DNA from: Candidatus Aceula lacicola
GTDB lineage: Bacteria > Omnitrophota > Gorgyraeia > Zapsychrales > Aceulaceae
NCBI GenBank assembly: GCA_030765785.1
Contig: JAVCCC010000039.1
Coordinates: forward strand, 1 to 36,577
Reading direction: 5' to 3'
DNA length: 36,577 nt
Positions 3 through 9,179 of this stretch are shown piece by piece. Numbering within the stretch: the stretch's first letter is position 1; every line of letters starts with the position of its first letter. The position numbers were made by a program, and so were the translations under genes. The notes under the pieces were generated by a model. The model was not told the origin of the DNA, searched no databases, and saw only the letters and a program-made list of their open reading frames with translations.

Positions 3-1345
3 ATTTATGATTTATTTTCTAGAGGTGTCAACTGGTCAGATATCAATGTTTTAAGTGACCAAGGTGTCAACTGGACAAGCATCTATGATTTATCTTCTAG
101 AGGCGTCAATTGGGAAGACATCAATGTCTTAAGTGACCAAGGTGTCAATTGGGCAAGCATTTATGATATGAGTTCACGTGGTATCAATTGGGAAGATATC
201 AATGTCTTGAGCGATCAAGGCGTCAACTGGTCAGATATCAATGTGTTGAGCGACGCAGGTATCAGCTGGGCAGATATTAACGCGATGAGCGACGCAGGCA
301 TCAACTGGTTTGATATTGGGATTCTGTCAGATGCTGGTATTAATTGGCAAGACATTCAAACGTTGTCTGAGAACGGTATCAACTGGGAAGATTTTCAGGT
401 TATGAGCACTAGAGGCGTTAATTGGTCTGATTTTAATGCAATAAGCAAGACTGGAATTAATTGGAATGATTTTGTTACGTTAACGGCTGCAGGAATAAAT
501 TGGGTAGATATAGGTACTCTTTCGGATGCTGGAATCAATTGGGCAGATATGAAAATTATGGGAACAGCAAATGTCAATTGGGCAGACATAAGAATTTTAA
601 CAGAAGCTGGGGTTAATTGGATTGATATCGGTCACTTATCTGATGCAGGTGTCAACTGGCTTGACATTGGAAGCCTTAGTGACGTAGGAGTTAACTGGTC
701 AGATATCGGTGTTTTGGCAGCAACAGGTATTAATTGGGCAGATTTTAGAAGCTTATCTGTTGCAGGTGTCAACTGGGTTGACATTGGAAGCCTTAGTGAC
801 GTAGGAGTTAACTGGTCAGATATCGGTGTTTTGGCAGGAACAGGTGTTAATTGGGCAGATTTTAGAAGCTTATCTGTTGCAGGTGTCAACTGGGTTGACA
901 TTGGAAGCCTTAGTGACGTAGGAGTTAACTGGTCGGATATCGGTGTTTTGGCAGGAACAGGTGTTAATTGGGCAGATTTTGGCGCGTTAACTATTGCAGG
1001 AATTAATTGGACAGACTTTAGGTCCTTTTCTCAAGCTGGCGTTAATTGGATTGATCTTGGGGCCTTAACAGACGCAGGAGTAAATTGGGCAGATATCGCT
1101 GAGCTCACCGCAAAAGGAATTAATTGGGCTGATATTGGGATTCTGTCAGCTGCTGGCATTAATTGGACAGATGTTGTTACGATGTCTAAAAATGGCGTCA
1201 ACTGGGAAGACATAGCGTATATGGCGGGAACAGGTATCAATTGGGATGATATGGGCGTAACAAGCAACTCTGGAGTTAATTGGAGCGATTTGGCTGCGAT
1301 GACAAGTGCAAGTATAAACTGGAATGATATTGCTTATTTAGCTGA
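3..1345 (+). repeat. 39-bp / 13-residue tandem protein repeat array
   Basis: At least 34 in-frame 39-bp units run from the left edge. The core reads G(V/I)NWxD(I/F) and the linker is often LSDAG. One unit has GISW and one has NVNW; the last, SINWNDI, marks the decayed end. At the 5' end the units form a two-unit (78-bp) higher-order repeat in which one member reads WxSIYDxSSRG. The array continues beyond the window, so its true length is unknown. Confidence 0.95.
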
Positions 1346-2126
1346 TAACGCACAGCTGCTGGTAACAAACGTCAATACTATTTTAGGCGTTTGCAACACT
1401 CTTAATTCCTTAACAGGAGACCCTGCCGATGCTTCATCTTCAGATACTTTATTTGGAAGAATTAATCTTCTTTTGGATGTAACAGGGACAGGAACTAATT
1501 TAAGCTCAGATATTGAAACGATATTGGCAACAGTGACCACTCTTGAAGAAAACATTGGAACGTCTGATGATGTCTCTTCTTCATCTACGGTGTTTGGTGA
1601 TTTGAAGGAAATCGAAGACTATGTTGATACGCTTGAGACGTTGTTAGGTGTTTCGGGCGATACAACTGAAGAGAGTGTTTTTGGTGAACTATCTAAGCTT
1701 GCGACAATCAGCGAGCTTGTTGACAAGGCAAAGAGTGGTGCTGAGGCGGCTTTAGGTGAGGCATCAGGTATTCGTCAGGAGCTTGGCGCTAAAGGCATGA
1801 CGCCAAGCGTTTATCAAAAGCTAAAGAATTTAGACACCACAATGGAAGAGCTAAAGATTGCGTCAGAGACAATTTCAGAAAGCCAGCTTGAGACAGGAAA
1901 TCTTGCCTCTGATATGCTTTCAAAGTTATCAAATCTTGTAGAGGAGTCGGCAAAATCTCTTGGCGTTCAGGATATGATCGTCGAATCGCTATCGTCTGTA
2001 GATGCGGGCAATATGGATAAAGTGCATCAAAAGCTTGCAGAAATTACGACAAAGCTAGAGGCTTTAAGAGAAGCTGTTGGGCAACAGGATGTTGTTATTA
2101 AGAGTTGGTTTGAGTCCAGCGAATAA
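3..2126 (+). CDS. Giant-type repeat protein with 13-residue GVNWxDI repeats and coiled-coil-like C-terminus (5' partial)
   Basis: The reading frame is open from the left edge (first full codon at base 3), so the gene starts outside the window; the ATG at 168 is an internal Met of the repeat array. At least 34 copies of a 13-residue unit, approximate consensus GVNWxDIGxLSDA, fill the frame to about base 1345. Asn-Trp and the following Asp-Ile/Phe are almost invariant. The roughly 260-residue tail changes character: three spaced copies of a motif ending in TLFG, TVFG or SVFG, then a Leu/Glu/Lys-rich stretch that looks helical or coiled-coil. It ends in WFESSE with no membrane segment or LPXTG-like signal. 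I do not recognise the family. Giant repeat proteins are known in Omnitrophota, and a surface or adhesive role is a guess. The gene ends 44 bp before an exported membrane protein and heads the ATPase cluster. Confidence 0.85.
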   Translation: MYDLFSRGVNWSDINVLSDQGVNWTSIYDLSSRGVNWEDINVLSDQGVNWASIYDMSSRGINWEDINVLSDQGVNWSDINVLSDAGISWADINAMSDAGINWFDIGILSDAGINWQDIQTLSENGINWEDFQVMSTRGVNWSDFNAISKTGINWNDFVTLTAAGINWVDIGTLSDAGINWADMKIMGTANVNWADIRILTEAGVNWIDIGHLSDAGVNWLDIGSLSDVGVNWSDIGVLAATGINWADFRSLSVAGVNWVDIGSLSDVGVNWSDIGVLAGTGVNWADFRSLSVAGVNWVDIGSLSDVGVNWSDIGVLAGTGVNWADFGALTIAGINWTDFRSFSQAGVNWIDLGALTDAGVNWADIAELTAKGINWADIGILSAAGINWTDVVTMSKNGVNWEDIAYMAGTGINWDDMGVTSNSGVNWSDLAAMTSASINWNDIAYLADNAQLLVTNVNTILGVCNTLNSLTGDPADASSSDTLFGRINLLLDVTGTGTNLSSDIETILATVTTLEENIGTSDDVSSSSTVFGDLKEIEDYVDTLETLLGVSGDTTEESVFGELSKLATISELVDKAKSGAEAALGEASGIRQELGAKGMTPSVYQKLKNLDTTMEELKIASETISESQLETGNLASDMLSKLSNLVEESAKSLGVQDMIVESLSSVDAGNMDKVHQKLAEITTKLEALREAVGQQDVVIKSWFESSE
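645..981 (+). repeat. 117-bp higher-order repeat (three 39-bp units), about three near-identical copies
   Basis: Copies begin at 645, 762 and 879 with exact 117-bp spacing. Each encodes AGVNW(L/V)DIGSLSDV, then GVNWSDIGVLA, then a unit ending in WADF. They differ at only a few bases, whereas neighbouring 39-bp units differ widely. This points to recent unequal crossover or gene conversion inside the array. Confidence 0.9.
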
Positions 2127-2170
2127 GGTGTATTAGTTGTATTTGAAGTATACTAAAACGGAATTATACA

Positions 2171-7657: not shown

Positions 7658-7676
7658 TTTAAAAGGAGGCTTTTAA

Positions 7677-9179
7677 TTGAGCGAAGAACTCAAGAAAAAA
7701 CAAGAAGATGTACCAAGTGAGAAGCTAGCGCAAGAACAATCCAAGGAACCTGCCGTGGAAGCGTCTCCTTTAGAGGAGCTAAAAAAGATCGGTAAAGGTA
7801 TCGGAAAGATTGTCTCGGTTCAAGGGCCTGTTGTGGATATTAGCTTTGATAATCCTAATGACATTCCTGCCTTGTACGACGTTATCCACGCTGAGAGGTT
7901 TGATAAAAGGCTTATAAAATTGCAATGCGCAGAACATCTTAACAGTAAAGTTGTTCGTACGGTTTCCTTGATGGATACTTTAAATTTGCAAAAAGGCTCA
8001 ATCTGTTACAATACGTTTCAGCCGATTGCGATTCCTATTGGCGATGAATGTTTTGGTCGCGTTATGGATGCAACAGGTCGTCCTATTGATAATCTAGGGC
8101 CTATTTCAACAGATCAAATAACACCGATTCGTAAATATTCAAAGCAGGTTCCTTTTGATTTGAAGCGAAAAAAAGGTGCTATGGCTGAAGTTCTTGAGAC
8201 TGGCATGAAATATGTCGATATGCTTTTTCCATTGGTTAAGGGAAGTAAGACTGGGATTCTCGGAGGCGCTGGGTGCGGCAAGACCGTTGTTATCTTGGAG
8301 CTTATTAATAATATTATTAAAGCGCATGATGGTGCTTGCGTGTTTACAGGTATCGGAGAACGAATTCGAGAAGGAAATGAGCTTTTTCATGAACTTGGCG
8401 ACAGTAAGTTGCTTCCTCGCGTTATGATGACTTTTGGGCAGATGGATCAGCCACCAGGATCGCGCGCAGAAGTTGTTAATACAGGTATCACATTGGCTGA
8501 ATATTTGCAAAATCAAAATAAGGACGTATTGCTGTTTATGGATAATGTTTTTCGTTTTATTCAGGGAGGCCAGGAAGTTTCAACGTTATTGGGACGCGTT
8601 CCTGCCGAGACTGGCTATCAGCCGACTTTGTCATCTGAGGTTAGCTATGTTCAGGAGCGTATTCGCTCGATTGAAGGAGGGGGGTCTGTTACCGCTCTTC
8701 AAGCGGTTTATGTTCCTGCGGATGACATGACGGATCCAGCTGTTGTTGCGATTTTTAGTTATTTGGATGGATCTATTGTTCTTTCGCGTGATCTTGTTCA
8801 AAAAGGTATGTATCCCGCCATTGATCCGTTGATGAGCAGCTGCGGAAATCTCGATCCAATGATTATCGGAAGACGCCATTACGATGTTGCGCAAAATATT
8901 ATTATACATGTTAATAAATATAATGGCTTGAAGCGCATTGTTGCTGTTATTGGTATTGAGGAGTTAAACAAAGAAGACCGGCTTGTTTATAGCCGAGCGC
9001 AGAAAATTCTTAACTTTATGACACAGCCGTTTACAGTCAGTGAGGTTTTTACTGGAAAGAAGGGTGAATACGTTTCAATCGAGGATAATGTGGAAGGCTG
9101 TGCACGTATTCTAAGTGGAGATTATGATAAAACAAAACCTGAAGATTTTTATATGATAGGAAAGGCGCCAAAAATTTAG
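7677..9179 (+). CDS. atpD: Divergent F-type ATPase subunit beta (catalytic)
   Basis: Catalytic F1 subunit. P-loop GGAGCGKT (residues 196-203), catalytic Glu in GERIREGN (E228), Walker B VLLFMDN (D289), [10 protein letters not shown] and the ELNKED lever (DELSEED equivalent) are all present, so ATP turnover should be possible. An added N-terminus of about 40 charged residues (Lys/Glu/Gln-rich) precedes the beta-barrel. The TTG start lies 7 bp after AGGAGG. The gene is last in the ATPase cluster and only 8 bp separate it from gspE, so the two sets may share a transcript. The sequence departs from typical beta at several otherwise fixed positions ([15 protein letters not shown]). Confidence 0.94.

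Follow-up and report, generated by a model that had tools for sequence, protein, structure and literature searches.

We describe a gene cluster of the Omnitrophota bacterium Candidatus Aceula lacicola that encodes the end of a giant exported repeat protein, a membrane stalk protein and an F1-type ATPase for which no subunit a could be recognised. The cluster lies at the start of a contig of 36,577 bp, the whole of which was analysed (the window; contig C29 of genome G000, a genome of 1.5 Mb that is 95.7% complete; G and L numbers are our labels for genomes and loci). The explanation that we favour overall, and that we give about an even chance of being correct, is an ATP-driven rotary motor of the F1 type that has lost ion movement and would do mechanical work in the cell envelope. 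The motor is probably uncoupled from ions and would be a mechanical rotor rather than an ion pump, because no subunit a is recognisable and because the membrane glutamate of the ring is replaced in 9 of 80 loci. The genes form a single + strand cluster in which the repeat open reading frame (ORF; 3-2126), the stalk gene (2171-3559) and seven ATPase genes (3643-9179) follow one another, with gaps of 44 bp (2126/2171) and 83 bp (3559/3643), as a first-pass annotation of this DNA had reported. That annotation closed the cluster at 9179 and overlooked the missing subunit a. A GspE-like gene in fact starts at 9188, 8 bp after the beta gene, and genes resembling those of type II secretion systems (T2SS) and type IV pili (T4P) continue to at least 17488.

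Six of the seven ATPase genes match Pfam families. The F1 alpha-like subunit (3643-5208, + strand; PF00006 and PF00306) has a P-loop (GDKMTGKT) and an arginine finger (SVSRVG) and passes the NCBIfam model TIGR00962 (520.9 bits, cut-off 484.45), and the catalytic beta-like subunit (7677-9179, +), which also has a P-loop, passes TIGR01039 (525.7 bits, cut-off 462.85). The P-loop was found in 85 and the arginine finger in 83 of 87 alpha ORFs, while both the P-loop pattern (odd in one case) and GERxREG were present in 85 of 85 beta ORFs. As these elements are kept, the motor is expected to hydrolyse ATP. The rotor shaft corresponds to a gamma subunit (6806-7657, +; PF00231, 104 bits, cut-off 39.9), accompanied by the beta-sandwich domain of an epsilon subunit (5222-5536, +; PF02823, 44 bits, cut-off 27). 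A c-type ring subunit, c1 (5571-5792, +; PF00137, 26.8 bits, cut-off 24), has an RNP loop and a membrane glutamate (FVEA); it is followed by a second c-like subunit, c2 (5807-6040, +), recognised through protein and profile matches and reaching no Pfam family at cut-off. The peripheral stalk, or stator, is a b-delta fusion (6053-6796, +) made of one N-terminal membrane stretch, a coiled-coil-like middle and a delta/OSCP domain (PF00213, 29.4 bits, cut-off 22.3), and the N-terminal membrane stretch was seen by hydropathy in 84 of 84 b-delta ORFs. Gamma, epsilon and delta are therefore all above their Pfam cut-offs; gamma is below its NCBIfam cut-off, and the b part is below that of Pfam (ATP-synt_B, E 0.0014).

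Searches for subunit a with PF00119 gave nothing at E≤1 in the window's genome, and 9 of 14 control genomes were positive. Among 54 relatives, 46 had a gamma match at E≤0.001; 38 of these were of the cluster type (E≤1e-38), and the other eight had only weak matches (E≥7e-10) of the ordinary kind. PF00119 was absent at E≤1 from 14 of the 38 cluster-bearing relatives, and in the remaining 24 the match lay on another contig than the cluster. Phylum-wide, 78 of 172 cluster genomes lacked it at E≤1e-5, and having it was unrelated to having the cluster (p 0.22). From the first ATPase gene seen to gspF, a hydropathy scan of 78 loci, some of which are cut by contig ends, detected no unassigned ORF that has more than one membrane stretch. 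A subunit a inside the cluster was rejected on the basis of these PF00119 searches together with the hydropathy scan for multi-membrane ORFs. An ORF of about 300 amino acids (aa) that precedes the ATPase genes in nine loci was rejected as a candidate, since by eye it resembles a response regulator with GGEEF, and it has at most one hydrophobic stretch. Elsewhere in the window's genome, a V-type ATPase operon on contig C33, with subunits A, B and D and a ring protein identified by Pfam, could serve energy conversion.

The ring proteins were compared as well. The window's c1 can be aligned with c-rings of solved structure, including its glutamate, the ion-binding residue of those rings. The rotor-facing loop reads RNP in 86 and RHP in two of 88 c1-type ORFs, and the glutamate position holds Glu in 76, Gln in eight, and Val, Gly, Thr and Ala once each. 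When the count was restricted to c1 ORFs whose loop is RNP or RHP, the carboxylate was lost in 9 of 80 loci (eight Gln, one Thr), with at least four changes on the beta tree. ORFs labelled c2 kept the glutamate in 27 and lost it in six of 33 cases. In some lineages, then, the ring seems hardly able to carry ions, to judge from its sequence, and since the RNP loop is kept while the carboxylate is lost in some, the ring seems to be held for contact with the rotor.

The arrangement of the cluster was examined in 40 stretches from relatives, in 35 from the rest of the class and phylum, picked for long contigs and diversity and thus not at random, and in two loci of the same order, L161 and L178, noticed through their stalk. 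The neighbourhood count used the window and 75 loci chosen by gamma, some genomes giving two loci; ten with less than 1.2 kb upstream were dropped, which left 66. A giant ORF was defined as one of at least 1000 aa, or of at least 390 aa and open at a contig edge. Upstream of the motor, a stalk domain was found in 63 of the 66 loci, a giant ORF in 60 and both in 60. Three loci had a stalk without a giant (L069, L070, L071) and three had neither at the motor locus (L142 in G124, L143 in G107 and L171 in G201). Alpha, epsilon and c swap places among loci while stalk and giant stay upstream. On the other side, where 69 loci extend 5.5 kb or more beyond gamma, beta was present in 69, gspE in 69 and gspF in 68. 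In seven class-level loci (L142, L147, L157, L169, L172, L176 and L177) the epsilon gene lies between gspE and gspF, so that motor and T2SS-like genes are interleaved.

Genome-wide, we compared 384 Omnitrophota genomes, calling gamma at E<1e-25, a cut-off chosen once a gap from 1.2e-26 to 2.4e-21 had become visible, and the stalk at E≤1e-6. Cluster-type gamma was found in 172 genomes and the stalk in 154: 145 had both, 27 the motor only, nine the stalk only and 203 neither. The co-occurrence is strong (Fisher's p 6e-65), although related genomes are not independent and the count is uncorrected for phylogeny. At least seven of the 36 mismatched genomes (G040, G049, G133, G189, G202, G239 and G041) are cases of contigs ending in the cluster; contig breaks inside the cluster (L179, L180) account for G041, with a stalk and no gamma, and for G003, with stalk and gamma on two contigs. 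A scan of 84,980 named species genomes with short gamma patterns, which would miss distant relatives, returned 50 loci with the cluster gamma. All carried titles of Omnitrophota type (one as Zapsychrus) except L118, titled 'bacterium'. The 35 named GTDB loci with upstream sequence, largely the same organisms as those of the 66-locus set, had the stalk in 34 and the giant in 33. The comparison of relatives that the first-pass annotation had proposed as a check of the link between repeat protein, anchor and ATPase thus gave a strongly positive result. Several genomes hold more than one motor cluster, and these belong to different subtypes: G012 (L069, L075), G020 (L061, L068), G047 (L072, L073), G014 (L056, L161), G121 (L144, L182) and G182 (L153, L187).

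The stalk protein (2171-3559, +) has an N-terminal hydrophobic stretch of export type, two tandem units that are each strand-rich and followed by helix, a C-terminal membrane stretch and a short charged tail. The AlphaFold2 model (mean pLDDT 82) shows an N-terminal helix, two strand-rich domains each with helices after them, and a long helix at the C-terminus, which covers the hydrophobic stretch. A membrane-like stretch at the C-terminus was detected by hydropathy in 84 of 92 stalk homologues. The stalk profile had only two matches among PDB sequences (E 0.44 and 0.47), taken as chance, and a Foldseek search of the model against the PDB gave none at E≤0.001. The best VIA-align superposition (Z 9.6, 4rkm_G) covered a helical stretch only (84 residues, root-mean-square deviation 2.2); because a score at this level may, according to the tool, mean no more than a shared arrangement, we assign the stalk to no family.

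In 14 of the 66 gamma-selected loci, giant and stalk are a single polypeptide, and in the six fused proteins printed out the stalk domain is at the C-terminal end of the giant. The fused or split state changes at least six times on the beta tree, a figure that rests on our own labels, with L168 labelled fused on the tree only and stalk-chosen loci included. At the join of the fused proteins, a strand resembling PIVxxxYE runs into the first domain of the stalk, for example DEPIVQTFYEIGSVKLRVVAVNPS. In split pairs, the giant ends and the stalk begins at this same point, which suggests, from sequence comparison, that the last strand of a split giant docks on the stalk. The role of linker that the first-pass annotation had given to the anchor protein is therefore well supported as far as the giant and the stalk are concerned.

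In the window the repeat ORF (3-2126, +) has 707 codons and is truncated on its 5' side, where the contig starts. It encodes the C-terminal part of a giant exported protein, with about 34 units of a 13-residue repeat that contains the pattern G-[IV]-N-W-x-D-[IL] and a helical region after them, the last residues being VIKSWFESSE. The 707 residues contain 33 Asn-Trp (NW) pairs, against about 2.8 expected from composition, and 31 of the 32 intervals between them are of exactly 13 residues; Tandem Repeats Finder gave periods of 39, 78 and 117 bp for the gene. An end motif, [VI][KE][ST][WY][FY]E followed by a few residues, was present in all 28 same-order sequences that reach a stop codon, the window included. 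That the protein is a giant, as the first-pass annotation had it, is shown by relatives, whereas the window itself holds only the 707-aa fragment. The complete homologue in G017 is 10,958 aa long, counted from a chosen first methionine. It has 798 NW pairs, spaced by 13 residues in 792 of 797 intervals, and its only hydrophobic stretch, at the N-terminus, reads as an export signal. In a search of the loci from the wider class and phylum, the profile of the 13-residue-repeat family, C-terminal region included, was strong only in L145, L150, L151, L160, L163, L165 and L167 and in the same-order loci L179-L181, and weak in L155. The 13-residue repeat is not the conserved feature across the phylum, and the giants of many other classes differ in sequence. 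A seeming exception in G043 (L181) is explained by the contig end, past which its repeat ORF continues.

According to the explanation that we favour, ATP hydrolysis would turn gamma and epsilon together with the inner-membrane c-ring while the b-delta stator holds alpha3beta3. With no subunit a, the ring would be free of ion traffic and torque would therefore go to partners in the membrane. The near-constant membrane partners in the cluster are the stalk helix, with the giant fused to it or not, and GspF. The simplest torque partner would be the anchored end of the giant, with its C-terminal strand docked on the stalk, and/or the pseudopilus platform. Whether the torque acts on the giant protein or the pseudopilus, as proposed here, or on neither, we regard as evenly balanced. 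The giant would serve as a long fibre on the cell surface, and moving, extending or reeling it would bring about attachment or surface motility; the first-pass annotation had suggested that the ATPase could move or export it. An input of cyclic di-GMP could come through the PilZ domain of GspE. Response-regulator or GGEEF-type genes, identified by eye, are found just before the ATPase genes in L142, L143, L147, L157, L169, L171, L172, L176 and L178, and these nine loci together with the PilZ domain suggest that the motor may be under cyclic di-GMP control. The most specific version of the proposal, an F-type ATPase lacking subunit a whose c-ring, as a pure rotor, turns or reels, through an inner-membrane anchor, a megadalton exported fibre of thousands of residues at the cell surface, is tentative and rather doubtful.

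Were it correct, it would add a further way of driving a surface filament, in addition to flagella or archaella and pili. The known rotary ATPases that have a membrane ring are ion-coupled machines; this one would have the ring without an ion path. A widespread family whose ring comes with no recognisable channel, and which in some lineages lacks the ion-binding residue, would show a purely mechanical use of the coupling. It would also give genome analysis a way into the giant ORFs of Omnitrophota, through a membrane anchor, an adjacent motor and, in the window's order, a conserved C-terminal motif, and would turn pilus, odd ATPase and giant ORF from a loose list of symbiosis traits into one testable machine.

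Several observations weigh against this proposal. On the side of the motor, the main objection to a fully ion-free ring is the c1 glutamate, which such a ring would not obviously need and which is kept in 76 of 88 ORFs; in addition, a strict pattern for the DELSEED-like torque loop fits only 37 of 85 beta ORFs. Pfam at E≤1e-5 missed a 588-aa ORF that occupies the subunit I position in the V-type operon of the window's genome; since this candidate escaped, a divergent subunit a could escape as well. For the giant, a structure model of the repeat array, with one short helix per unit, went unused and no fold is proposed for the 13-residue repeat because of its low confidence (mean pLDDT 52). The partnership itself also has exceptions. 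The single chromosome of G386 (CP070807.1) has c1, b-delta, alpha, gamma and beta in this order, with a partly masked c1 that carries Gln, and has no gspE, gspF or giant within a 20.8-kb stretch. G124, whose genome is one contig, has the motor and T2SS-like genes, with a large ORF (at least 2018 aa) upstream of the motor on the other strand. In both genomes the search found no stalk match; it had no positive control of its own there, but the same profile matches in 154 of the 384 genomes. G107 and G201 have stalk-giant pairs at other genomic positions, away from the motor. Relatives with the ATPase genes far from any repeat or anchor protein, which the first-pass annotation had counted against its own proposal, thus occur, although rarely (G386 and G124, and G107 and G201). 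Of 20 regions picked for stalk matches away from the listed gamma matches, nine proved to be motor clusters too, and ten (L183-L186, L189, L193, L194 and L196-L198) contain a giant, or a large ORF cut by a contig end, with a stalk domain and no motor genes. In the remaining region, L195 (G305), the order is giant, stalk, c1 and pilM, with F1 genes not nearby, and the c1-like protein keeps RNP while Ala replaces the ion-binding Glu. Finally, in G001 and G006 repeat ORFs seem to run off a contig end and no cluster gamma was found. Given motors without a stalk (G386, G124) and pairs without a motor (ten of the 20 regions), the partnership of motor, giant and stalk is not obligatory.

Part of this evidence would fit a motor that mainly serves the T2SS- or T4P-like apparatus. 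It would power or clamp the assembly or retraction of a pseudopilus, with the c-ring working against the GspF platform and not the stalk and the giant being cargo or an adhesin made alongside, a reading that partly overlaps with ours. The association with gspE (69 of 69 loci) and gspF (68 of 69) is slightly tighter than that with the giant, epsilon is inserted between gspE and gspF in seven loci, and G124, which has no stalk match, retains both the motor and the T2SS-like genes. The stalk is nearly constant too, however (63 of 66), GspE is already an assembly ATPase and would make a second motor redundant, and the stalk and the complete giant have hydrophobic N-termini of export type, so that no new export motor is needed; moreover, G386 has the motor and lacks gspE and gspF within its 20.8-kb stretch. 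We consider this explanation unlikely, while keeping it in view as a substantial one. That giant-stalk pair and motor are merely neighbours, co-transcribed surface and energy genes with no physical coupling, would account for the motors of G386 and G124, which have no stalk match, and for the motor-free pairs in several genomes, which are followed, in those inspected by eye, by genes of housekeeping type. It would hardly explain, without selection, why both stalk and giant have stayed on the upstream side in 60 of 66 loci when alpha, epsilon and c move, and it appears quite improbable.

The other two alternatives concern the nature of the ATPase. It could be an ordinary ion-translocating enzyme of F or N type whose subunit a has diverged or is encoded elsewhere. 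The conserved c1 glutamate, aligned with that of solved rings, the subunit I candidate that escaped Pfam, and the best match of b-delta, to the b family of the alternate F1F0 ATPase (48 bits, cut-off 224.7), are in its favour. Against it, PF00119 is absent (E≤1e-5) from 78 of 172 cluster genomes, 78 loci contain no unassigned multi-membrane ORF, the glutamate has given way to Gln or Thr in 9 of 80 loci through at least four changes, and the V-type operon could serve energy conversion in the window's genome. We judge it improbable. N-ATPases (alternate F1F0) are second, non-housekeeping F-type ATPases, and they have a subunit a; no counterpart of it was found here, and although, of the named families, their b family comes nearest to b-delta, the cut-offs of the N-ATPase models of NCBIfam were all missed, for alpha and beta as for the others (TIGR03324, 492.2 against 750.5 bits; TIGR03305, 469.7 against 752; TIGR03323, 24.5 against 282.35; TIGR03321, 48.3 against 224.7). 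Alternatively, the motor could be the same machine by descent as the type 2/3 ATPases of mycoplasmas, which include the G1-ATPase gliding motor, as was suggested for an Omnitrophota clade by Seymour et al. in 2023. In the available part of that paper, an Omnitrophota alpha subunit is placed with mycoplasma type 2/3 sequences in a tree (PMC10066038), and GliD of Mycoplasma mobile has been hypothesised to be a b-delta fusion (PMC11864180, in the portion available), as is found here. Set against this, the NCBIfam cut-offs of the mycoplasma families were missed (MMOB1660, 399.5 against 600; MMOB1670, 427.4 against 850; MSC_0619, 299.8 against 520; MSC_0618, 392.1 against 570), beta is closer to ordinary F1 (best 459 bits) than to the beta of the M. 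mobile G1-ATPase (343 bits), and the mycoplasma clusters were reported, in the accessible part of PMC3369863, to lack homologues of b, delta and c. Common descent in this sense is very improbable. The comparison with mycoplasmas made by the first-pass annotation is an analogy, since alpha and beta fall short of the NCBIfam thresholds for the mycoplasma families. As far as the accessible text of PMC3369863 and PMC11864180 goes, those ATPases likewise have an F1-like head that is not used for ATP synthesis and no reported homologue of subunit a. The present system differs from them by c1 (and c2) with its rotor loop, by the membrane stretch of b-delta, and by having a giant ORF, a stalk and T2SS-like genes as part of the locus.

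Part of the picture has been published. In the portion of the work of Seymour et al. available to us (PMC10066038), a non-respiratory F-type ATPase beside type-4a pili is described in every class of Omnitrophota, with ATPase and pili within 10 kb of each other in 57 of 66 contigs; giant ORFs are treated there separately from ATPase and pilus, and their roles are called poorly understood. Given the same phylum and the same ATPase-pilus neighbourhood, we infer that the window's cluster is one of these 'symbiotic' F-type ATPase/type-4a pilus loci. The same portion of the paper describes no stalk, no loss of the carboxylate and nothing of the subunit anatomy (c-like proteins, b-delta fusion, missing a). 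In a search of open-licence PMC literature, without supplements, no paper was recognised that joins giant ORF, stalk and motor, or that reports the missing subunit a. The link between motor and pilus is therefore already known, while the giant-stalk-motor unit, the missing subunit a and the loss of the carboxylate appear to be new, and there is a realistic chance that the cluster represents a new type of surface machine.

The genes downstream of the motor, all on the + strand, begin with a GspE/PilB-type assembly ATPase with MshEN and PilZ domains by Pfam (9188-11398), a GspF/PilC-type inner-membrane platform protein (11419-12624; PF00482) and a peptidase MA-like protein (12640-13446; PF13485) that is present in many clusters, though not all. 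They are followed by GspG (13459-13884; TIGR01710, 147.7 bits, cut-off 88.85), two small proteins that look like prepilins by eye, one without a Pfam match (13891-14310) and one with a sub-threshold match to T2SSJ (14317-14928; PF11612, 20.3 bits, cut-off 28), and a GspK-like protein (14928-15959) that passes the T2SSK family PF21687 (45.9 bits, cut-off 26.2) and not the NCBIfam cut-off for GspK (57 against 130). A PilM/PilN-like fusion (15977-17488; PF11104 and PF05137) and a protein without Pfam match (17498-18358) complete the series; pilM homologues also occur near the motor in L143, L150, L171 and other loci. The equivalog models gave scores below their cut-offs for GspE (551.2 against 630.25), GspF (357.9 against 424) and PilB (552.6 against 675.65). 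With GspG above its cut-off, a T2SSK domain and homologues of GspE and GspF, the apparatus looks, by its gene set, at least as close to a T2SS as to a type-4a pilus. No T2SS is known to include an F-type rotary ATPase. The window's genome encodes four secretins, on contigs C36, C39, C51 and C16, and none on the window's contig.

Further along the window, an ORF at 22762-24126 resembles, by eye, a CpaF/TadA-like ATPase distinct from the GspE of the cluster. It lies in a region (20564-25093) where four tRNA genes, for tRNA-Ser (cga, gga and gct) and tRNA-Arg (acg), are found within 4.6 kb. Between a deaminase-like gene and tRNA-Ser(gct), a 96-bp unit is repeated 2.6 times with 99% match (24771-25016). 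The contig ends within an ORF on the - strand (35072-36577) that by eye resembles a large serine recombinase. This ORF overlaps a tRNA-Asn gene (35038-35113) in the 3' part of the latter, as would be seen at the border of an integrated element.

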